From NCBI GenBank assembly GCA_005116835.1, contig SWDM01000004.1:90749-154748 (forward strand): 64,000 bases of DNA, given 5' to 3'. The stretch's first letter is position 1, and each line of letters begins with the position of its first letter. This document shows positions 1,624 to 12,297 of this stretch, one piece after another. The position numbers and the translations under genes were made by a program. The notes under the pieces are model-generated. The model was not told the DNA's origin. It worked only from the letters and a program-made list of their open reading frames with translations, and searched no databases. Source of the DNA: Nitrospira sp. (GTDB lineage: Bacteria; Nitrospirota; Nitrospiria; Nitrospirales; Nitrospiraceae).

Positions 1624-2505
1624 ATGCTCGGGATTGTTCGCGGCACCCTGTTCGCCGCAGTATTAGTCTTGATGACCACCCAACCGATGATCGGCTTCGC
1701 CTATGACTCGGACGGTCCTGAAGCCGCCATCCGCACTTTAGTTCGCGCTAACGCCGAACTGGATATGGCTACCCTCTCTCGTTACATGGCACATGACGCC
1801 GATATCACCAGCTACACCATCGGCGGACGAAAGTATGTGGGATGGCCGGAGTTTCAGCATGACATGCAAGAAGAGTTTTCCTCCGTGGCCAAGCTTGAAA
1901 TTCCCATTACTGAGCTCAAGGTTTGGACGAAAGGAACTGTGGCCTGGTTTACCATGGAACTGGACTACATCCGCTACATAGGAGAGGGATCGGATCAACG
2001 GAGAACGGTGCTTCCTCTGAGAGAAAGCGGAGTCTTAGAACAACGCGGGGGACAATGGGTTCTGCTCTCCTGGCATGAATCGCTCCGGGACATGCAGCTC
2101 GGCGTCTCGTTAGCCCAGCGGTCCATGACATCTCCTCCGCAACACTTGGTCAGCAATACTCAAGCTTCGGCAATCCCTGACTTGAGCGGGGAATGGGATA
2201 TTCTCGAGGTGGAGGACGACAAGCGCTACAAGGCCACACTCGACAAAGCCGGCAACGGTCCCTATACCCAGCATGGTGGACGATTCGTTACGACAAAATA
2301 TGCCGACCGTCTCTGGCAAGGCACTTGGCTTCAGCCGGGTAACGATCGCGAAGGAGAGTTTGAATTGCTCCTCTCAGAAGATGGGACTCAAGCTAAAGGA
2401 GTCTGGTGGTATTCCCGTGTCGGGGCTCAAAAAAACATTCCTCCTCGAGAACATGGCGGAACCTACCTCTGGAAGCGGCTGACCCCGCTCCCACCTGCAC
2501 GATGA
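1624..2505 (+). CDS. Secreted SnoaL/NTF2-like domain protein
   Basis: 293 residues. The first ~26 form a signal peptide with a hydrophobic core (FAAVLVLMTTQPMIGFA), so the protein is probably periplasmic. Residues ~30-155 match the NTF2/SnoaL pattern: an alternating helix/sheet start (EAAIRTLVRANAELDMATLS), a YTIGG stretch, a WPEF turn and a late strand with QRGGQWVLLSWHES, as in ketosteroid-isomerase-like proteins. Residues ~185-290 are a second beta-rich part beginning DLSGEWDI, rich in Trp and Gly, resembling the small beta-barrel units that follow phrases such as 'LSGEW'. No catalytic residues can be assigned. An AAGAGG lies upstream of the ATG. The next gene is also exported. The fold call is moderate; the function is unknown. 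Confidence 0.6.
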   Translation: MLGIVRGTLFAAVLVLMTTQPMIGFAYDSDGPEAAIRTLVRANAELDMATLSRYMAHDADITSYTIGGRKYVGWPEFQHDMQEEFSSVAKLEIPITELKVWTKGTVAWFTMELDYIRYIGEGSDQRRTVLPLRESGVLEQRGGQWVLLSWHESLRDMQLGVSLAQRSMTSPPQHLVSNTQASAIPDLSGEWDILEVEDDKRYKATLDKAGNGPYTQHGGRFVTTKYADRLWQGTWLQPGNDREGEFELLLSEDGTQAKGVWWYSRVGAQKNIPPREHGGTYLWKRLTPLPPAR

Positions 2506-2582
2506 TATCTGCGTATCACACAGGCCTACACGATCAGCACCCCGATTATTCGCGTGACCACTATTTATCCTTTGGAGGTTCT

Positions 2583-3587
2583 ATGCGTCAGCTACTTTTC
2601 ACTCTGCTCGCCGGCATCTGCCTAGTGACTCCGGCCCTTGCAGACGGCGGTCACGACCACCATGCGGTTCCCTCGCTCAAAAATCAGACAGCCACGACCG
2701 TCACGATTCAAGACAATGTCGTGACCCTCACGTTCGGTCCCATCGATCTCCCCGCCTCTCACGAAGGAGACCTGGCGGCGTCGATGCCCAAACATAGTTT
2801 TCAGCTTCCCAAAGATATGTACATGGTGGGCTACAAGACGGCGGTCTTTACCAAAGAAGGAAAACCGCTCCCCAAGAACTATCTCCATCACATCCTGATG
2901 CTCAATAACAGCAAGCCAAGCGTTTCCTGCGATGGCGAGCCCTTGTTCTTTGCTGGAGCGGGGCTGGAGATGACTGAGACTCGTTTCCCGTCCGGCTATG
3001 GGGTCAAGCTTGCCAAGAGCGATCATCTTATGTCGATCGTCGCGTTTTATCACAAGGCGCCGGTCACCAAGGATGTCATGGCGACTTTCACCATGTACAT
3101 GGCGCCTGAAGGTACGCCCGTCAAAGAAATGGACGTGTATCAGGTAGGAGTCAACATCGTATGCTTCAGTAAATTTGCCCAGCGAGGCTCCAACCAGACG
3201 GACGAAGGGATTGAGATTAACACCGGAGTCCAGGTCCACAAGGAGCCACTCAAGTTCTCAATGGATGGCTGTGTGAAGTTTGCCTATCCGCATGGACATG
3301 ACGAACTCCTCATGATTGGGCTGGACAACAAGACCAAGAAACAGACGTTGCTGCGGACAGTTCCCGATGTCGACCAGGATGGAACCTTTCTCCAATTTCA
3401 GCCGCATCAAGTCTATCAAGACGGCCAAGGATTCCCTGTGACGAAGGCGGATGACTACGAAATGGTCATGGTCCATCACCATCCCTTGCAGAAAAAAGAA
3501 CCCCAACATGGGATGGGAAACTATTTGCTGTACATGACCCCTGGCACATGCCCGACGACTTCCGCTTCGCCACTCGCCCTCAACTAA
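2583..3587 (+). CDS. Secreted His/Met-rich protein, SURNod19 or copper-monooxygenase-like
   Basis: The ATG at 2583 is preceded by a good ribosome binding site (TTTGGAGG) and gives a clean signal peptide ending ALADGG; a longer upstream reading frame has no such support. The mature protein of ~315 residues is rich in His and Met: GGHDHHAV near the start, LHHILMLNN around residue 100, then YPHGHDELLM and MVMVHHHPLQ towards the end. The LHHI motif followed by a Cys-containing loop resembles the copper-binding first half of peptidylglycine/dopamine monooxygenases and the related SURNod19 family. This suggests a metal-binding periplasmic protein, possibly an oxygenase-like fold without confirmed activity. 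The gene is 77 bases downstream of the NTF2-like gene on the same strand. Confidence 0.5.
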   Translation: MRQLLFTLLAGICLVTPALADGGHDHHAVPSLKNQTATTVTIQDNVVTLTFGPIDLPASHEGDLAASMPKHSFQLPKDMYMVGYKTAVFTKEGKPLPKNYLHHILMLNNSKPSVSCDGEPLFFAGAGLEMTETRFPSGYGVKLAKSDHLMSIVAFYHKAPVTKDVMATFTMYMAPEGTPVKEMDVYQVGVNIVCFSKFAQRGSNQTDEGIEINTGVQVHKEPLKFSMDGCVKFAYPHGHDELLMIGLDNKTKKQTLLRTVPDVDQDGTFLQFQPHQVYQDGQGFPVTKADDYEMVMVHHHPLQKKEPQHGMGNYLLYMTPGTCPTTSASPLALN

Positions 3588-3933: not shown

Positions 3934-6900
3934 ATGCTGCAGAGCGAACCGGTCGCATTCCTGATTGTCAGCGGACAGGCTGAGTCAGTTAAAGTTATCA
4001 CCCTCTGTTTGCGCGGCTTCTTTCCCAACTGCCGCGTGGATGTCGCCTATTCCGCTGAGGAAGCCCGAGCATGGATATCGACGCAAGAATGGACCCTTGT
4101 CCTCATCGACGAACAATGCCTCGCCGAAAACGATAACTCACTTCCAAACGAATTCCGACGCCGCGCACCCTACGCCACAAGCATTCTGCTCGGCAACCAT
4201 ACCGACTCAGCCTCGGCCCTTCAGGCTCTCCAGGCCGATATCAGCTTTTTCCTCTCGAAGAAATCCCCGGCCTTTCTTACCGAACTCCTGTTCTGCGCAA
4301 AGGAAGCCATCGAAACGCGCCGTCTGAGAGCGGCCCTCGATCATACGATCGAACGCCATCGTGGACTGACCGAATCGCTCAGCGATATCGTCTACGAACT
4401 GGATGCCGGAGGCAAGTTTGTCATGGTCAGTCCGAACATCGTCGCGCTACTAGGCTACTCGCCTGACGAGCTCATCGGAATGCCCTATACCACTCTCGTC
4501 CCGCCCGACCAGGAGTCGGCGGCTCGATATCGCCTGAATGAACGTCGATCAGGAGCGCGGGGCGCCAGCCATGTTGAATTGATCTTGAGGCTGAAGCCTA
4601 CGCAGGACAACAAGCTGCAGACCTTCACCGCTGAGGTGAACGCCAGAGGACTCTATGACTCGCTTCGTCGATTTCTCGGCACGGTGGGACTGATCCGAGA
4701 CATATCCAAATCCAGACAGCAAGACACGACGATCCACGAACTGCACCGGCACCTCCGGCATAGTGAAACACTGCTCGTTCTCGCACAGAAAGTTAGCCTG
4801 CTGTCGGAACAGCTGCACGATCCCCTGGCGTCGTTGCTCACGCAATCACAACAACTCCTTACGACCATACGCGACGCACGCCTGGACGACCAAGCCGAAG
4901 CCCTCGCTGCCCACGCGGCAGAAGCCACGAAACTCGGCGCACAGCTGACACAGGCTCTCCAGGAAAGAGAAGGACTCGCCTTAGGACCGACCATCAACGA
5001 GGTGCTTGACGACATACTCCTGTCCCCGAATCCCTCACTGGTGGACGGTGCCGGTATTACACGGCAATCCCCCTCTCATCTTCCTCCCCTTCTCGGCGAT
5101 CGAGAACAGATCACAAAGCTTTTGCTCGGTCTCGTGAGCTACGCGCAGACCTATCTACTCACGGTCGGACGCGCGCATCGACTCATTGTGTCTGCGCGCC
5201 CAGTGGGAGCTTCCTCCATCTCTGCAGACGATCCTACTCTTTTTCCTCTTGCCCCTCCGACTGAAATCGAAGTCGAGATGCTCGAGTCCGATGTGGCGCG
5301 GTCGCCAGCAACTCCCGCGCCAATAACTCAGTCCGCTGATCTCCTCGAATCCTATGAACTCGCTGGCAGATTGAACGGCGCCCTCGACTTGTCCGCCCCT
5401 ATGCAGGGCCCCTTTCGCCTGATCCTCCGTCTGCCGGTTGCCTCTCGTGTTCCCCTTGAGAATCTCCCATCGCCGACTACGGTCCCATCCGTTCACATCG
5501 CGGTCATGCCGGCTGAACAAAGCGACCAACCGATATCCGCTCCGGCAACCGATTCTGACAGGCCGAAACTAGAGCGACGCCGGGTCCCTCGCTTTCGCAC
5601 CACCCTGCCTGCCACGATCACTGTTGGGTCAGCTGCATGGGATGGCACCATCTCCGATCTCAGCTCCCGAGGAGCCTGCATCACACTGCCGGGCGACTTC
5701 CCAACCGTCGATACACAAGATGCCTATGTCATAGTCAAAACGTCCGTGGGAATTCTCGAGTTGCAAGGCAATGCGCGGGAACGATCCCACTCACTCCAAA
5801 CCAAAACACCCGCCGCGCAGTTGATCGTGACTTTTTATCCCCCCGCTCAACAAGAAGACGCCGTCCTGGCATCGCTGGTCCAAGCTGCGCAAGAGAAATC
5901 TCTGCCCCTCTCGCTTGAGATTCTGCTCGCAGCAGAACTACCGAGTGACTTGACGGCCAGTCCTTCCCTCGCGCCAGTGGAACCGGAAGACTTCGACCCA
6001 CGCGAGACGACACGAGTACCCTTAGCTCTTTCAATCCGGCTCGAGGTCATAGATCCTGCCGGGAAACGTTATCGCCTTGAGGCGCGAACCAGCAACCTTA
6101 GCCGAGACGGCGCCTGTCTCCACCTCACTGCTCGCCCCGAACTCCTGCGGGATATGGCGACGCTACACTTCGCTCCCACACAGACCGGGAATTATCCCAT
6201 AAGCCGTGAGCCCGGTGCGCCTGACGCCCCATTGGCTGCTCGCATCGTCTGGCTGGCTCCCGATCCAACAGCGCCCAGCGATTATCGTCACCAAATCTCC
6301 ACCCCTGCGCTACGAGTCGGTGTCCGTTTTCAAGACCTCACAGTCTACGCTGAGCATGAAGTGAACCGGGTCGTCCGAGAATACCTGACATCCACGGGCG
6401 AATTGGACCGCTCCACACCACAGGCGTCGGTCGTGAGTATCCTGCGAGAGTGCCGTAATCCACGCGGCCAGACGATCATGATGACCGACGACCACCTTCG
6501 CCAGTCAGTCACCCCAAACACACCGGTCGTCATTATTTCTCCCGGTTACGGCCAGACTGCGTTGGACGCCAGCACCTTGGCATACTATTTGGCGCACCAT
6601 CGGCTCCGCGTCCTTCGTTATGATCACACCAATCACTTGGGATTGAGCGACGGCGAATTGCAGCAAACAACCCTACGGGGCATGCAAGCCGACCTCCTCA
6701 AAGTGGTGGAGTTTGTGCAACATACGTGGCCGACCGCTCCCCTGATTGTCATAGCGAGCGACTTAGCTGCGCGCGTCGCCCTCAAGATGACGGTGCAATC
6801 ACGCCCGCTCGACCTGCTTCTCCTGATCAATCCGGTCGTCGACGTTCAAGCCGTACTTCTGGCTGTTCATGGCCACGATCTCGTGGCTGACTACCGATAC

Positions 6901-8121
6901 GGGCTGCGACGCGGCATCGCGAACCTGCTGGGGCTCAATGTCGATGTCGATCGCTTTATCGGCGACACGGTTGCAGGCCATTTTACCGATCTGGACGCCA
7001 CGCTTGCGGATCTGAGGCTCCTTCGCACACCGTCGGCCATTCTCACCATTCCCAGCAACCCGCTCGGACCGATGCCTCCCGCCGATCTCCCGCAGTCATT
7101 TCTTACCGCGCTTGGATCCCATACGCGCCTGACAACGTCTCCAACACCGCTGATCGGCCAGCATCTCCCGCTCAATGAACAACATCCCTTGGCGTTCCAG
7201 CAAATCCTGGAACAGATCGCCACAACCGTCTCCCTGCCGACTATTCCGGCTGAGTTCAGCGCACAAACCCGTCATGGTCTGGCGCGTCAACAACGTATCG
7301 AGCTGGAACGCACACGTCTGCGCCACAACATCTCGCAGATCTCACGAGAGGCCTTGCGAATTATGCATCTGCAACAGCTACCCCAACTCGGAAATCTCCA
7401 TGAGCATTGGAAGCTGCTGGACGATCTTTACAGGCTGCTAAGTCCACTCGAGTCAGGTTCCATGCTTGCGGAAGTGGGAGTCGGCCAGGGCGATTTTGTC
7501 AGAGCCACGATGGTCAACCACGCCTACCGTTCACGACAGCGTGGATGGAGTCCTGAGCGTCCAGTTCAGGTGATCGGTCTGGAACATTCCCAGGACTCAC
7601 TGACGCAGGCCAGAGAGAGTCTTCGCGCGTTGCATCGGGAACTCGACACGGACTTTGCCGGCACCCTGACCATCCACCCACCCCTGACCACTGGTTGGAT
7701 GCAAGTGGACTGGACACAGCATCTTCCGTTTAAGGACGAGTCTCTCCAACGCATCGTCTGTAATCTCTCACTCACTTTCGTCCCCTCGCCACTCGTTGCG
7801 ATTCGGGAGCTCTACCGCATACTCCAGCCACAGGGACGCTTAGTCCTCACGGTCCTTCACCCCGACACGGATCTTTCTGTGATGTATCGCCGGCACCTGC
7901 GTATGGCCAATCAGGATGAATTTGCTCCTCATGCTCACCTCGTTCTGCACTACCTGGGACGACTCCGAGAAGCGATTCGGCATGGATTACTGCAGACTTT
8001 TGACCGGTCTTCGTTAGCCTCATTCCTCCGGCAAGCCGGTATCCCCACCCCCCGTATCCTTCCTGCGTTCGACGGACATGCCCTCTTTGCCGTCATAGAA
8101 AAAGGTAAATCTGCTAGCTGA
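3934..8121 (+). CDS. Multidomain fusion: receiver-like, PAS, degenerate histidine kinase, two PilZ, LuxD-like hydrolase, methyltransferase
   Basis: 1395 residues in one frame. Residues 1-130 look like a receiver domain: VLID59 at the phospho-acceptor strand and K109/K110 late. Residues ~146-262 are PAS (DIVYELDAGGKFVMVSP, LLGYSPDELIG). Residues ~270-510 resemble HisKA/HATPase but are decayed: in SEQLHDPLASLL the phospho-accepting His position is Glu292, and the N and G boxes are missing. Two PilZ domains follow, with R549/R553 and D575-L-S577-S-R-G580, then R690/R694 and N721-L-S723-R-D-G726. Residues ~860-1095 are an alpha/beta hydrolase like LuxD (RYDHTNHLGLSDG at 895-907) with Asp943 where the nucleophilic Ser is expected. 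Residues ~1140-1390 are a class I methyltransferase (EVGVGQG at 1180-1186). A sensor kinase gene follows 69 bases later. Predicted cytosolic; function unknown. Confidence 0.85.
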   Translation: MLQSEPVAFLIVSGQAESVKVITLCLRGFFPNCRVDVAYSAEEARAWISTQEWTLVLIDEQCLAENDNSLPNEFRRRAPYATSILLGNHTDSASALQALQADISFFLSKKSPAFLTELLFCAKEAIETRRLRAALDHTIERHRGLTESLSDIVYELDAGGKFVMVSPNIVALLGYSPDELIGMPYTTLVPPDQESAARYRLNERRSGARGASHVELILRLKPTQDNKLQTFTAEVNARGLYDSLRRFLGTVGLIRDISKSRQQDTTIHELHRHLRHSETLLVLAQKVSLLSEQLHDPLASLLTQSQQLLTTIRDARLDDQAEALAAHAAEATKLGAQLTQALQEREGLALGPTINEVLDDILLSPNPSLVDGAGITRQSPSHLPPLLGDREQITKLLLGLVSYAQTYLLTVGRAHRLIVSARPVGASSISADDPTLFPLAPPTEIEVEMLESDVARSPATPAPITQSADLLESYELAGRLNGALDLSAPMQGPFRLILRLPVASRVPLENLPSPTTVPSVHIAVMPAEQSDQPISAPATDSDRPKLERRRVPRFRTTLPATITVGSAAWDGTISDLSSRGACITLPGDFPTVDTQDAYVIVKTSVGILELQGNARERSHSLQTKTPAAQLIVTFYPPAQQEDAVLASLVQAAQEKSLPLSLEILLAAELPSDLTASPSLAPVEPEDFDPRETTRVPLALSIRLEVIDPAGKRYRLEARTSNLSRDGACLHLTARPELLRDMATLHFAPTQTGNYPISREPGAPDAPLAARIVWLAPDPTAPSDYRHQISTPALRVGVRFQDLTVYAEHEVNRVVREYLTSTGELDRSTPQASVVSILRECRNPRGQTIMMTDDHLRQSVTPNTPVVIISPGYGQTALDASTLAYYLAHHRLRVLRYDHTNHLGLSDGELQQTTLRGMQADLLKVVEFVQHTWPTAPLIVIASDLAARVALKMTVQSRPLDLLLLINPVVDVQAVLLAVHGHDLVADYRYGLRRGIANLLGLNVDVDRFIGDTVAGHFTDLDATLADLRLLRTPSAILTIPSNPLGPMPPADLPQSFLTALGSHTRLTTSPTPLIGQHLPLNEQHPLAFQQILEQIATTVSLPTIPAEFSAQTRHGLARQQRIELERTRLRHNISQISREALRIMHLQQLPQLGNLHEHWKLLDDLYRLLSPLESGSMLAEVGVGQGDFVRATMVNHAYRSRQRGWSPERPVQVIGLEHSQDSLTQARESLRALHRELDTDFAGTLTIHPPLTTGWMQVDWTQHLPFKDESLQRIVCNLSLTFVPSPLVAIRELYRILQPQGRLVLTVLHPDTDLSVMYRRHLRMANQDEFAPHAHLVLHYLGRLREAIRHGLLQTFDRSSLASFLRQAGIPTPRILPAFDGHALFAVIEKGKSAS

Positions 8122-8190: not shown

Positions 8191-9516
8191 ATGACCCCCC
8201 CGGCGGGCCACACGGTGTTATGGCATTCCCTATTCACTATGACATCACCTTCCTCTCATACGGATATCTTGGCTCCTTCCCCTGGCACACTCTTGAATAT
8301 CGTCACGCAGTTTGCAGCTGACCTGGGAACGATGACCGACCTGACGACAATCGGAAACCGTATTATCAAAGAGCTGTGTGAGGCAGGTGGTACAACCCAT
8401 GGGGCGCTGTTTCTCCTCGATCGTGAACACGAATGTTATCGCCGCGCCAGCATGGTCGGACCGGTCGCACCGGCGCTTGTGCCTCCAACGCTGGCTATGG
8501 ACCATCCTCTGCCTCGCCACCTGCTCGCAACCAACCGAATCATGACGCAAGGCAACGCGCCGGCAGACCTACAGGATACCGATTCCGAAGTTGGCGCCCG
8601 AGCAGCTATGGAATCCATGCAGGCCCTGAGGATCGTACCCCACATCAATAAAGGCCGTCTCATCGCCTTTTCGCTCCTCGGCGCGGCACAGCCTATACCC
8701 GAAGAGAATTCACCGACCAGATTTCTCCTCGCTGCGCTCGCGCAAACCGCCACGAACGCCCTAGACACCATTGTGCTGTACGAAGATCTCCATCGCTCTC
8801 ACTTGCTCATGAAACGCACGGATCGCCTGAAATCCCTTGAAACGATCGCCGGGGGCTTCGCACATGAAATCCGAAATCCCCTCACCTCGATTAAGACCTT
8901 TATCCAGTTGGCTCCTGAACGAAAAGACGACCCCCAGTTTATTCAAGAGTTCAGCAAAGTGGTGCTCGACGATGTGTATCGGATCGAACGGCTCATCCAG
9001 GAAATCCTCGACTACGCCCGATACATGGAACCCAAGCTGACGGAAGAGGATTTCAACGATATTGTGGCCTCCTGCCTCTATTTCATCGATGTCAAGGCAG
9101 ACAGCCATGGGATCAAGATTGAAAAAGAGTTGGCGTCCGACCTGCCTCGTGTCATGTTGGACCGGCAGCAGATCAAACAGGTTCTACTCAACCTCTTCCT
9201 CAATGCCATGGACTCGATGGCAAGAGCGGGTGGACGGTTGCGCGTTCGCACCTACAAGCTCGTGAAACCGGGGGGAAGCATCTGGGTCAACATCGAAATC
9301 GAGGATACAGGAGAGGGAATCCAAGAGACGAACATCGAGCATATTTTCGACCCGTTTTTCACGACGAAACACGAGAGCGGGGAACACGAAGGAACGGGAC
9401 TGGGCTTGACGATCGTCCATCAAATCATTCAGGAACACCACGGCGAGATACGGGTGAAAAGCTCGATCGGTGTCGGCACCACGTTTTTTGTGAGCCTGCC
9501 TGCACTACCCGCATAG
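8191..9516 (+). CDS. GAF-domain sensor histidine kinase (NtrB-like)
   Basis: 441 residues, no membrane segment, so a cytosolic sensor. Residues ~30-195 form a GAF-like sensor. The kinase core follows: GGFAHEIRNPLTSIKTF with His225 as phospho-acceptor, then LLNLFLNAMDSM (N box), IEDTGEGI (G1), DPFFTTK (F box) and GTGLGLTIVHQII (G2). All ATP-binding motifs are intact, in contrast to the pseudokinase part of the gene upstream. It lies 13 bases before an NtrC-type regulator, the classic two-component arrangement, so it very likely phosphorylates that protein. The GAF ligand is unknown. The start is uncertain: ATG at 8191 is the longest, ATG at 8239 is an alternative; neither has a clear ribosome binding site. 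Confidence 0.92.
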   Translation: MTPPAGHTVLWHSLFTMTSPSSHTDILAPSPGTLLNIVTQFAADLGTMTDLTTIGNRIIKELCEAGGTTHGALFLLDREHECYRRASMVGPVAPALVPPTLAMDHPLPRHLLATNRIMTQGNAPADLQDTDSEVGARAAMESMQALRIVPHINKGRLIAFSLLGAAQPIPEENSPTRFLLAALAQTATNALDTIVLYEDLHRSHLLMKRTDRLKSLETIAGGFAHEIRNPLTSIKTFIQLAPERKDDPQFIQEFSKVVLDDVYRIERLIQEILDYARYMEPKLTEEDFNDIVASCLYFIDVKADSHGIKIEKELASDLPRVMLDRQQIKQVLLNLFLNAMDSMARAGGRLRVRTYKLVKPGGSIWVNIEIEDTGEGIQETNIEHIFDPFFTTKHESGEHEGTGLGLTIVHQIIQEHHGEIRVKSSIGVGTTFFVSLPALPA

Positions 9517-9529
9517 CCGTCAACACCCT

Positions 9530-10957
9530 ATGGACACTAGTATGAAAAAACGAGTGCTGTTGATCGATGATGAGTCCCGGGTCCGGGCCTCATTGAAAGC
9601 AGTGCTGGAACCGGCCTACGAAACCATCCAAGCCGCCGATGCCCAGGAGGGCCTTGAGCTGTTTCGGAAAGAAGCCCCTCACCTGGTGCTGCTGGATGTG
9701 ATCCTGCCAGGGACCGACGGACTATCGGTCCTCCAAACGATACGGGCCGAGGACCGCACGGCGCCGGTCATCATGTTGACCGGGACGAAATCGGTGAAAA
9801 CCGCCGTCGACGCGATGAAATTCGGCGCAGCCGACTATCTCTCAAAGCCGTTCGACGTGGAAGAACTCCGCATCATTGTCGAGCGCGCGCTCAGTGACCA
9901 AGAGCTTCAACGAGAAGTCAAACAACTCCGCGCGCAAGTCGTCCGTCGCTATGCCTTTCACAACCTAATCGGCAAAAGCCCCGGCATGCAGGATATCTAC
10001 ACCAAGATCGAGCAAGTCGCAGACAGCCGTACGACCGTCCTGATCGGGGGCGAGAGCGGCACAGGCAAGGAGCTGGTCGCCAAGGCGCTGCACTATAACA
10101 GCGGCAGACGGGAACGTCCCTTTATCGCGCTGAACTGCGCCGCCATTCCCGACACGCTCATCGAGAGTGAACTGTTCGGCCATGAGAAGGGTTCATTCAC
10201 GGACGCCACAGCCCGTCGAGTCGGGCAATTTGAACTGGCCAATACCGGCACACTCTTCCTCGACGAGATCGGCGACCTCAGTCCCATGACCCAAGCCAAA
10301 CTCCTGCGCATCCTGCAAGAGCGAGAGTTCACCAGAGTCGGAGGAGTGCAATCGATCAAGGTGGACGTGCGGATTGTGACAGCCACGAACCAGAATCTCG
10401 AAGATCTTGTCCGCAAGGGGCAATTCCGCGAAGACCTCTACTACCGCATCAACGTCATTGCCCTGTATTTGCCCCCTCTTCGGGAGCGTGGCGAAGACAT
10501 TCCACTCCTCGCCAGGCACTTTCTGTCCAAACGTATCGAGGAAGAGAGTCGGAAGCCTCAAGAGTTCTCCAAAGATGCCGTCGATCTTCTATGCCGCTAT
10601 CCCTGGCCCGGCAATGTCCGAGAGATGGAAAACATCATCGAACAGGCATTCATTTGGTCTAAGGGATGCGACACCATTCTGCCCGAACATCTCCCGACCA
10701 TTCTCAAAAACGACTCCCGATCCTCTTCGCTCCGTGACGACACGCTCGCCGGCAGACTGTCGCTCGAGAAGGCCGTCATGGAATTTGAGCGAGAAATCAT
10801 CTTGGATGCCTTGAAACGAACCAACTATATCCAAACCCATGCTGCGAACCTGCTGGGAATCAGCCGCCGGATGCTCAAGTACCGTATGGACACGCTGGGA
10901 ATCGGTCGACCCGATCAGGAGGTTGCGCCAGAACCTCCTGCCATAGTGCAGGAATAG
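9530..10957 (+). CDS. NtrC-family sigma-54-dependent response regulator
   Basis: 475 residues with three domains in order. Receiver domain, residues ~5-125: LLIDDE, the phospho-acceptor in LVLLDVILPG, and YLSKPFD. AAA+ sigma-54 activator, ~145-380: Walker A GGESGTGKE, Walker B GTLFLDEIGD, and the arginine-finger region. Fis-type helix-turn-helix at the end: HAANLLGISRRMLKYRM. The loop that touches sigma-54 reads GSFTDA instead of the canonical GAFTGA. It is preceded by its probable kinase and followed by a receiver-HD-GYP gene whose upstream region contains a sigma-54 promoter match, the likely target. ATG at 9542 (MKKRVLLIDDE) is an equally possible start. Family secure; target is inference. 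Confidence 0.94.
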   Translation: MDTSMKKRVLLIDDESRVRASLKAVLEPAYETIQAADAQEGLELFRKEAPHLVLLDVILPGTDGLSVLQTIRAEDRTAPVIMLTGTKSVKTAVDAMKFGAADYLSKPFDVEELRIIVERALSDQELQREVKQLRAQVVRRYAFHNLIGKSPGMQDIYTKIEQVADSRTTVLIGGESGTGKELVAKALHYNSGRRERPFIALNCAAIPDTLIESELFGHEKGSFTDATARRVGQFELANTGTLFLDEIGDLSPMTQAKLLRILQEREFTRVGGVQSIKVDVRIVTATNQNLEDLVRKGQFREDLYYRINVIALYLPPLRERGEDIPLLARHFLSKRIEEESRKPQEFSKDAVDLLCRYPWPGNVREMENIIEQAFIWSKGCDTILPEHLPTILKNDSRSSSLRDDTLAGRLSLEKAVMEFEREIILDALKRTNYIQTHAANLLGISRRMLKYRMDTLGIGRPDQEVAPEPPAIVQE

Positions 10958-10976
10958 CACAGCCTTACTGAGTCTT

Positions 10977-10997
10977 TTCTGCACCATTGATGCAGAA
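10977..10997 (+). terminator. Small hairpin after the response regulator gene
   Basis: TTCTGCA (10977-10983) and TGCAGAA (10991-10997) form a perfect 7-bp stem with a 7-base loop, followed by ATTT. It starts 19 bases after the stop. The short stem and weak U-tract make it a weak terminator at best. Confidence 0.35.
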
Positions 10998-11098
10998 ATT
11001 TCCACCGCAGTACGTAGTGTTTCGCCCCGTAAAACTACATATGGGCTTCCGTCGTGGAGCAGCTACACTCCATTGACGGATGGCCTAACTCACTGAAA

Positions 11099-11114
11099 TG
11101 GAACGGGAATTGCT
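11099..11114 (+). promoter_or_regulatory. Sigma-54 (RpoN) promoter for the receiver-HD-GYP gene
   Basis: TGGAACGGGAATTGCT matches the -24/-12 consensus TGGCACG-N4-TTGCW except for one base. The invariant GG (11100-11101) and GC (11112-11113) are exactly 10 bases apart. Predicted transcription would start near 11125, leaving ~20 bases of leader that carry the AAAGGA ribosome binding site before ATG 11146. The gene just upstream encodes a sigma-54 activator, which supports the site. Confidence 0.7.
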
Positions 11115-11145
11115 TAGAATTACGTAGTTGATGCTAAAGGACCCT

Positions 11146-12297
11146 ATGAATACGCCCGTCACTTCAGATCCGGTATTGAATAAACCGACCTTGCTCGTGG
11201 TGGACGACGAGGCAGGGCCTCGTGATGCGCTGAGAGTGATTCTCCGCCCATTCTTCAATATTCAAACAGCGGAATCGGCCAGTGCAGCAGTTGAGGTGCT
11301 CAATTCCCAGCAGATCGACATCATCACTCTCGATCAAAAACTGCCAGATCGCCAAGGTATCGATCTCCTGCAGGACATCAAGCATGACCATGCCAACGTA
11401 GAAGTCATCATCATCACCGGCTATGGAAGCCTGAAATCTGCCATGGAGGGGATACGCCATGGCGCTGCCGGCTATCTACTCAAACCATTCAATGTCACGG
11501 AATTACTTTCCCTCGTCAATCAGACGCTCGAAAAGAAACAACGGCTCGATTTCCTGAGACATTTCATCGGAACATCGACGCGCCTCTGGGGGTCGGATAC
11601 TGAAAGCGCACAAGCCTGGAAAGAATTACTTGCGGGCTACAAGGCGATCGCAAAATCAACATCGGGCAGCCCCTCCAATGTCGAAGATAAGTCGGATCTG
11701 CTCCCGGTGCTCTCAGACCTGCTTGAAGCCAAGGATCGCCAACTGCTCAACCACTGCAGCCGCGTGAGTTTCTACGCCACACTCTTGGCCAACCGAATTA
11801 ACCTGACGCAACCGGAACAGAAGTCACTGGCCCTGGGGGCCTTCCTCCACGACATCGGTAAGATCGGCCCGGAACCCTATCGATTCGCCGATGATGAAAT
11901 CACTGCGACCGAGAAGTCCGGTGGAAGCCAGCATCATCCAGAGCAGGGGGCGAAACTCGTATTGCCGTTAGGACTTCCGGCTGAGGTGGGACAGATTATT
12001 GCCTATCACCATGAACGGTGGGATGGCGCTGGCTATCCATTCGGGCTTCAGGGAAATGGAGTCCCCCAACTGGCTCGCATTGTCTGTCTAGCCCAAACAT
12101 TCGACCATCTGACTGCGGAACTCCCTGGACGAACTCCCCTCTCGATCGATGACGCCTGCCAACAGATGTTGTCGTACGCCGGCACTCACTTCGAACCGAA
12201 ACTAACCGAGCTCTTTGTCCATGTAGTCCAGGAATGCAAGGCCTCCCTTCCTGCCATGGCACTCGCAATAACCCCGACCGACCGATCTGACTCTTAA
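11146..12297 (+). CDS. Response regulator with HD-GYP domain (c-di-GMP phosphodiesterase-like)
   Basis: 383 residues from the ATG at 11146, chosen because AAAGGA lies five bases upstream and because a sigma-54 promoter would start transcription near 11125; in-frame starts at 11128 and 11131 would leave almost no leader. Residues ~5-125 are a receiver domain (LLVVDDEAG, IITLDQKLPD, YLLKPFN). The C-terminal half is an HD-GYP domain with HDIGKIG, QHHPEQGA and YHHERWDGAGYPFGL, keeping the metal-binding His/Asp set and the GYP signature. HD-GYP proteins hydrolyse c-di-GMP to pGpG or GMP. Together with the PilZ domains encoded at 3934-8121 this suggests a local c-di-GMP circuit. Metal ligands look intact, but activity is not proven. 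Confidence 0.9.
   Translation: MNTPVTSDPVLNKPTLLVVDDEAGPRDALRVILRPFFNIQTAESASAAVEVLNSQQIDIITLDQKLPDRQGIDLLQDIKHDHANVEVIIITGYGSLKSAMEGIRHGAAGYLLKPFNVTELLSLVNQTLEKKQRLDFLRHFIGTSTRLWGSDTESAQAWKELLAGYKAIAKSTSGSPSNVEDKSDLLPVLSDLLEAKDRQLLNHCSRVSFYATLLANRINLTQPEQKSLALGAFLHDIGKIGPEPYRFADDEITATEKSGGSQHHPEQGAKLVLPLGLPAEVGQIIAYHHERWDGAGYPFGLQGNGVPQLARIVCLAQTFDHLTAELPGRTPLSIDDACQQMLSYAGTHFEPKLTELFVHVVQECKASLPAMALAITPTDRSDS

Follow-up and report, generated by a model that had tools for sequence, protein, structure and literature searches.

In the window analysed here, a stretch of 64,000 nucleotides from contig SWDM01000004.1 of Nitrospira sp. (GCA_005116835.1, positions 90,749-154,748 of the forward strand), one open reading frame (3934-8121, + strand) encodes a seven-domain fusion protein, and comparison with its relatives suggests, at about even odds, that an ancestral pair of an acyl-signal synthase and its receptor gave rise to an internal pseudoenzyme, responsive to c-di-GMP, that would control the adjacent histidine kinase, sigma-54 regulator and HD-GYP protein. 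The frame starts with ATG, has no internal stop and codes for 1395 amino acids arranged as a receiver-like domain, PAS, a pseudo-histidine-kinase, two PilZ domains, a pseudo-hydrolase and a methyltransferase-like domain. The first-pass annotation of this DNA had described an uninterrupted seven-part frame of 1395 residues, and both the frame and the order of its domains hold, the latter by Pfam matches together with an hhalign comparison for the kinase core. It had also raised the possibility that a frameshift had joined separate genes. The search for full-length homologues recovered orthologs in the genus and in related genera: the fusion was a single full-length frame in 18 of the 32 Nitrospira genomes searched (the window genome being counted among the 18), the identity of these genus orthologs to the window protein was 59-77% with the window genome itself left out, and the protein was found at 48% identity in G032 and 42% in G036, which belong to related genera. 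A frameshift join or a misassembly is therefore excluded. The whole or a large part of the protein was found in 24 of the 32 genus genomes, some high-quality genomes of the genus (e.g. G020 and G027) are without the gene, and no full-length relative was found in a search of plasmids. In the literature, we found no paper that joins PilZ with hydrolase/methyltransferase or ketoacyl-synthase enzymes. Upstream, between a SnoaL-like gene and the fusion gene, lies a gene (2406-3587) whose product is apparently secreted and His-rich and has no Pfam match.

When the profiles were run over the protein, PilZ, Acyl_transf_2, Methyltransf_11 and PAS scored above their cutoffs, the receiver fell below its cutoff and Pfam gave neither HisKA nor HATPase. 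The atypical receiver (residues 8-118; 3955-4287, + strand) is assigned from ortholog column counts and a weak Pfam match over residues 10-111, which at 20.3 bits is below the cutoff of 30.2; it retains the phospho-acceptor Asp59 and the Lys and has Ser in place of the first acidic-pocket residue. It is followed by a PAS domain (residues 140-258; 4351-4707, + strand) that matched PF00989 over residues 143-257 with an E-value of 2.7e-10. Residues 262-505 (4717-5448, + strand) are homologous to a DHp-CA core, as hhalign aligned a profile of this segment over 221 columns with the catalytic core of the adjacent kinase (probability 98.6%, E-value 9.6e-16), and the structural model gave histidine-kinase-like fold matches. 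The earlier label of a decayed histidine kinase is thus right, since Glu292 occupies the position of the phospho-accepting His and the N and G boxes for ATP are lost, so that this segment is not an active histidine kinase. The AlphaFold models were built from 8-10 close sequences and are of low confidence (pLDDT 43-44), and their fold matches, of which only those to PilZ, kinase and methyltransferase were used, are taken as support and not as proof.

The PilZ profile was matched in two stretches (50.2 bits against a cutoff of 22.5, E 3.6e-13), which bears out the PilZ content given in the first-pass annotation. PilZ 1 (residues 545-660; 5566-5913, + strand) carries R549xxxR553 and DLSSRG, PilZ 2 (residues 685-815; 5986-6378, + strand) carries R690xxxR694 and NLSRDG, and both domains were assigned from Pfam, column counts and PilZ fold matches. 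Because the RxxxR motif is present in both domains in 31 of 31 long forms, it is plausible that both bind c-di-GMP. The canonical RxxxR and D/NxSxxG motifs and the tandem-PilZ fold matches are as in the PilZ effectors YcgR, MrkH and VCA0042 and in MapZ-CheR; however, the PilZ domains of the window protein are fused to a pseudo-hydrolase and a methyltransferase and it is not a CheR partner.

The LuxD-like alpha/beta hydrolase (residues 855-1120; 6496-7293, + strand) aligned with LuxD (PDB 1THT) with an E-value of 4.7e-9 and matched Acyl_transf_2 (PF02273) over residues 857-1033 with 50.7 bits against a cutoff of 20.3 (E 2e-13), whereas the LuxD equivalog NF052253 reached only 48.8 of the required 420 bits. 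Unlike LuxD, the window protein has Asp943 (codon 6760-6762, + strand) where the 1THT alignment and the ortholog columns place the nucleophile Ser114, a replacement shared by all 31 long forms that were compared, and in these long forms the acid and the His of the triad are lost and both positions vary freely. The Ser-Asp-His triad is thus missing and the hydrolase of the window protein is, as judged by its residues, catalytically dead. The fusion to PilZ and a methyltransferase also sets it apart from LuxD, and no LuxC/LuxE context of the fusion gene was seen. The N-terminal half of the hydrolase is nonetheless the most conserved domain of the protein (85% identity within the genus), and between the window and L063 the dN/dS was about 0.06 for this half and 0.18 for the whole protein. 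Retention under selection after loss of the triad recalls the GID1-type receptors, in which a hydrolase fold has turned into a receptor, with the difference that the window protein is a bacterial, multi-domain c-di-GMP protein.

The class I methyltransferase-like domain (residues 1150-1390; 7381-8103, + strand), assigned from column counts and a match to Methyltransf_11 (PF08241) over residues 1211-1305 (35.7 bits, cutoff 21.2, E 1.4e-8), has the sequence marks of a class I SAM enzyme in the window protein, namely motif I E1180xGxGxG and the beta-2 acid E1217, and these motifs are degraded in several orthologs. A pairing of the BioC/BioH type was considered and rejected, the BioC matches being weak (best 47 bits against a cutoff of 185). 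The first-pass annotation had proposed a nucleotide-gated lipid or acyl modification enzyme, and for the window protein this is not supported, given the lost triad and the state of the methyltransferase motifs in its orthologs. If it were nevertheless a working c-di-GMP-gated modifier, either a hydrolase with Asp as the nucleophile or the methyltransferase alone would modify a product of lipid or acyl nature. Asp serves as the nucleophile in dehalogenases and in epoxide hydrolases, and the invariance of the Asp and the methyltransferase motifs retained in the window protein would suit such an enzyme. The long forms, however, have neither the catalytic His nor the acid, inspection of their hydrolase for a newly gained His found none, and in many orthologs the methyltransferase has lost its acidic residue or its third glycine, and we consider a working enzyme quite unlikely.

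Downstream of the fusion gene are a partner histidine kinase of 441 residues (8191-9516, + strand), an AtoC/NtrC-like sigma-54 response regulator (9530-10957, + strand; Pfam and equivalog profiles) and a receiver-HD-GYP phosphodiesterase (11128-12297, + strand; likely start ATG at 11146) that was assigned by Pfam and has an intact HHERWDGAGYP motif, and this order of the four genes is conserved across genera. By Pfam and by comparison with the L054 kinase, the partner kinase has HisKA, HATPase_c and a remnant of GAF, the latter detectable with an E-value of 5e-20 against the L054 kinase, and has neither a 7TM part nor any other TM segment. The kinase and the sigma-54 regulator are distant relatives of PrsK/PrsR of the XrtA/PEP-CTERM system (TIGR02916/TIGR02915). 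Identity of the kinase with PrsK was rejected, as it scored 106 bits against a TIGR02916 cutoff of 300 and the same genome (G000) has a separate true PrsK with 353 bits at C5:73509-75527. This genome, with 33 PilZ matches and two exosortases, appears to be a heavy user of c-di-GMP. Ahead of the HD-GYP gene is a putative sigma-54-like promoter, TGGAACGGGAATTGCT (11099-11114, + strand), and when orthologous loci were compared its GG-N10-GC element was found at a nearly constant distance from the HD-GYP gene in spacers that have otherwise diverged. Of 39 spacers, among which some are duplicate records of one genome, 26 scored at least 9, compared to 4% of random segments. Over the whole window the sigma-54 pattern was found 4 times with 2.1 expected, which is no enrichment, and of these matches only the conserved site before the HD-GYP gene was used. 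Besides this element, the intergenic region (10957-11128) contains a conserved box, CTACATAT, and repeats of TACGTAGT, which may serve the regulator as its enhancer. This arrangement suggests a loop in which c-di-GMP would act through PilZ on the kinase, the kinase on the sigma-54 regulator and the regulator on a c-di-GMP phosphodiesterase.

With several dead domains in one protein, and with the gene missing from genomes such as G020 and G027, one may ask whether the fusion is a decaying relic without a present function. This is very improbable: the dN/dS of the whole fusion protein was 0.12-0.27 over seven pairs, and such purifying selection throughout already contradicts a relic. The full-length single frames of the 18 genus members, the invariance of the PilZ motifs and of Asp943, and the retained synteny also speak against it.

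The relatives of the fusion protein in the order and the phylum point to where it may have come from. These are shorter PilZ-hydrolase-methyltransferase proteins of about 550-1060 residues in which Ser-Asp-His is kept, the Ser and the Asp being in register with those of LuxD, and wherever the contig shows a neighbour the short form lies directly 5' of a multi-TM kinase of 716-1009 residues, which was HisKA_7TM plus GAF by Pfam where this was run. After the long forms the next gene is a kinase of 420-460 residues with essentially no TM segment. The long and the short types are both present, at different loci, in genomes of genus g17, and in L097 the enzyme and the 7TM kinase form one protein of 1641 residues. 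L048 has the receiver-PAS segment, together with a PilZ of its own, in a distinct gene immediately upstream, which makes it probable that the long protein is a fusion of genes that once lay side by side. A divergent fusion protein at L098:8773-12363 (G284) has Gly at the nucleophile position, and the sigma-54 regulator gene at this locus is not preceded by one for a histidine kinase. For the Ser-Asp-His relatives beside a 7TM-GAF kinase, a lipid or acyl modification enzyme is a reasonable description; the qualifier nucleotide-gated does not carry over to all of them, since many short forms (e.g. L053-L055 and L085) have no recognisable RxxxR motif, and c-di-GMP gating of the ancestral enzyme was thus not general.

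In Ralstonia, PhcB/PhcS mediate quorum sensing by fatty-acid methyl esters (PMC8578825), and the short forms resemble this system in that a methyltransferase gene adjoins that of a multi-TM histidine kinase. The likeness is one of gene layout, and there are differences: the relatives have the additional thioesterase-like and PilZ domains, a sigma-54 regulator and HD-GYP stand in place of PhcR/PhcQ/PhcA, and the window lineage has no membrane sensor, so that the combination of methyltransferase and multi-TM kinase is found with the short-form relatives and not in the window. At two loci the hydrolase is deleted or dead: L099 has none, and that of L049 has Asn as its nucleophile residue. Both loci keep the 7TM-GAF kinase, and in both a gene for PilZ-ketoacyl-synthase III (PilZ-KAS III) lies between the fusion gene and the kinase. 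PilZ-KAS III also immediately precedes a 7TM-GAF hybrid histidine kinase in two other families (L136:5074-10160 in G183 and L137:154-5221 in G226), an arrangement of which we found no description in the literature. The Cys, His and Asn of KAS III and the RxxxR of PilZ are conserved in all four of these proteins, and their relatives include PqsD-like matches, which belong to signal biosynthesis. The KAS III family also includes the signal-making enzyme PpyS (PMC4578411). In the loci read, a 7TM kinase always stands beside an apparently active acyl enzyme, and where no active enzyme appears to be left the 7TM part is gone.

An enzyme that adjoins a kinase, or is fused to it, could be a synthase or, just as well, a modifier that acts locally. 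The hydrolase-methyltransferase of the relatives might then make no signal and instead modify the kinase or a lipid of the membrane, with the 7TM kinase sensing the membrane and the window protein still a pseudoenzyme regulator. We consider this unlikely, as the exchange for an acyl-condensing KAS III, from a family with known signal makers, better suits small-molecule synthesis. Some points weigh against the conversion of a synthase/receptor pair into a pseudoenzyme. L049 has a dead nucleophile and yet a 7TM kinase, which is explained only by invoking KAS III, and the stimulus of the 7TM kinase might have nothing to do with the enzyme beside it. The tree places the dead long forms in a single clade, from which L051 may stand apart; the losses of the triad and of the 7TM part thus amount to one or two events, too few for a statistical test of their association.

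The conversion that we favour builds on domains, lost catalytic residues, conservation, synteny and configurations of relatives that are read directly from the sequences. A receiver-PAS gene would have fused with the gene of a more ancient PilZ-hydrolase-methyltransferase enzyme. In the relatives, the 7TM-GAF kinase probably has as its ligand an acyl compound made by that enzyme or by PilZ-KAS III, whichever is encoded directly before it; the window lineage would have lost both the catalytic activity and the 7TM part. The window protein would then be a cytoplasmic regulatory pseudoenzyme in which the PAS domain, the receiver-like domain and the two PilZ domains, for which c-di-GMP binding is predicted, would give input to the inactive kinase core and to the LuxD-like hydrolase, itself inactive but with its front half retained and with an invariant Asp where the nucleophile used to be. 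The fusion protein would act on the adjacent soluble histidine kinase, which would phosphorylate the sigma-54 regulator, and the regulator would activate the HD-GYP gene from the putative promoter and so close a c-di-GMP feedback loop. Taken more broadly, and more tentatively, with a chance that we put short of even, there may be a Nitrospirota signalling family in which a PilZ-fused acyl enzyme (LuxD-like plus methyltransferase, or KAS III) makes an acyl signal for the next-encoded 7TM-GAF kinase and c-di-GMP sets the output, and in Nitrospira the synthase may have become the internal sensor of the same kinase with the external signal abandoned. What appears to be new is that the Nitrospira protein is a pseudoenzyme and that candidate systems of an acyl enzyme and a 7TM kinase are found around it. 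If this is true, a signal-making enzyme and its membrane receptor can be internalised in one c-di-GMP-responsive pseudoenzyme, and nature would offer two paired states, active enzyme with 7TM kinase and dead enzyme with soluble kinase, which coexist in some genomes. It would also hint at an acyl signalling system, as yet undescribed, among the relatives of nitrifying Nitrospira, and would allow c-di-GMP control to be tested concretely in organisms relevant to wastewater treatment and the nitrogen cycle.
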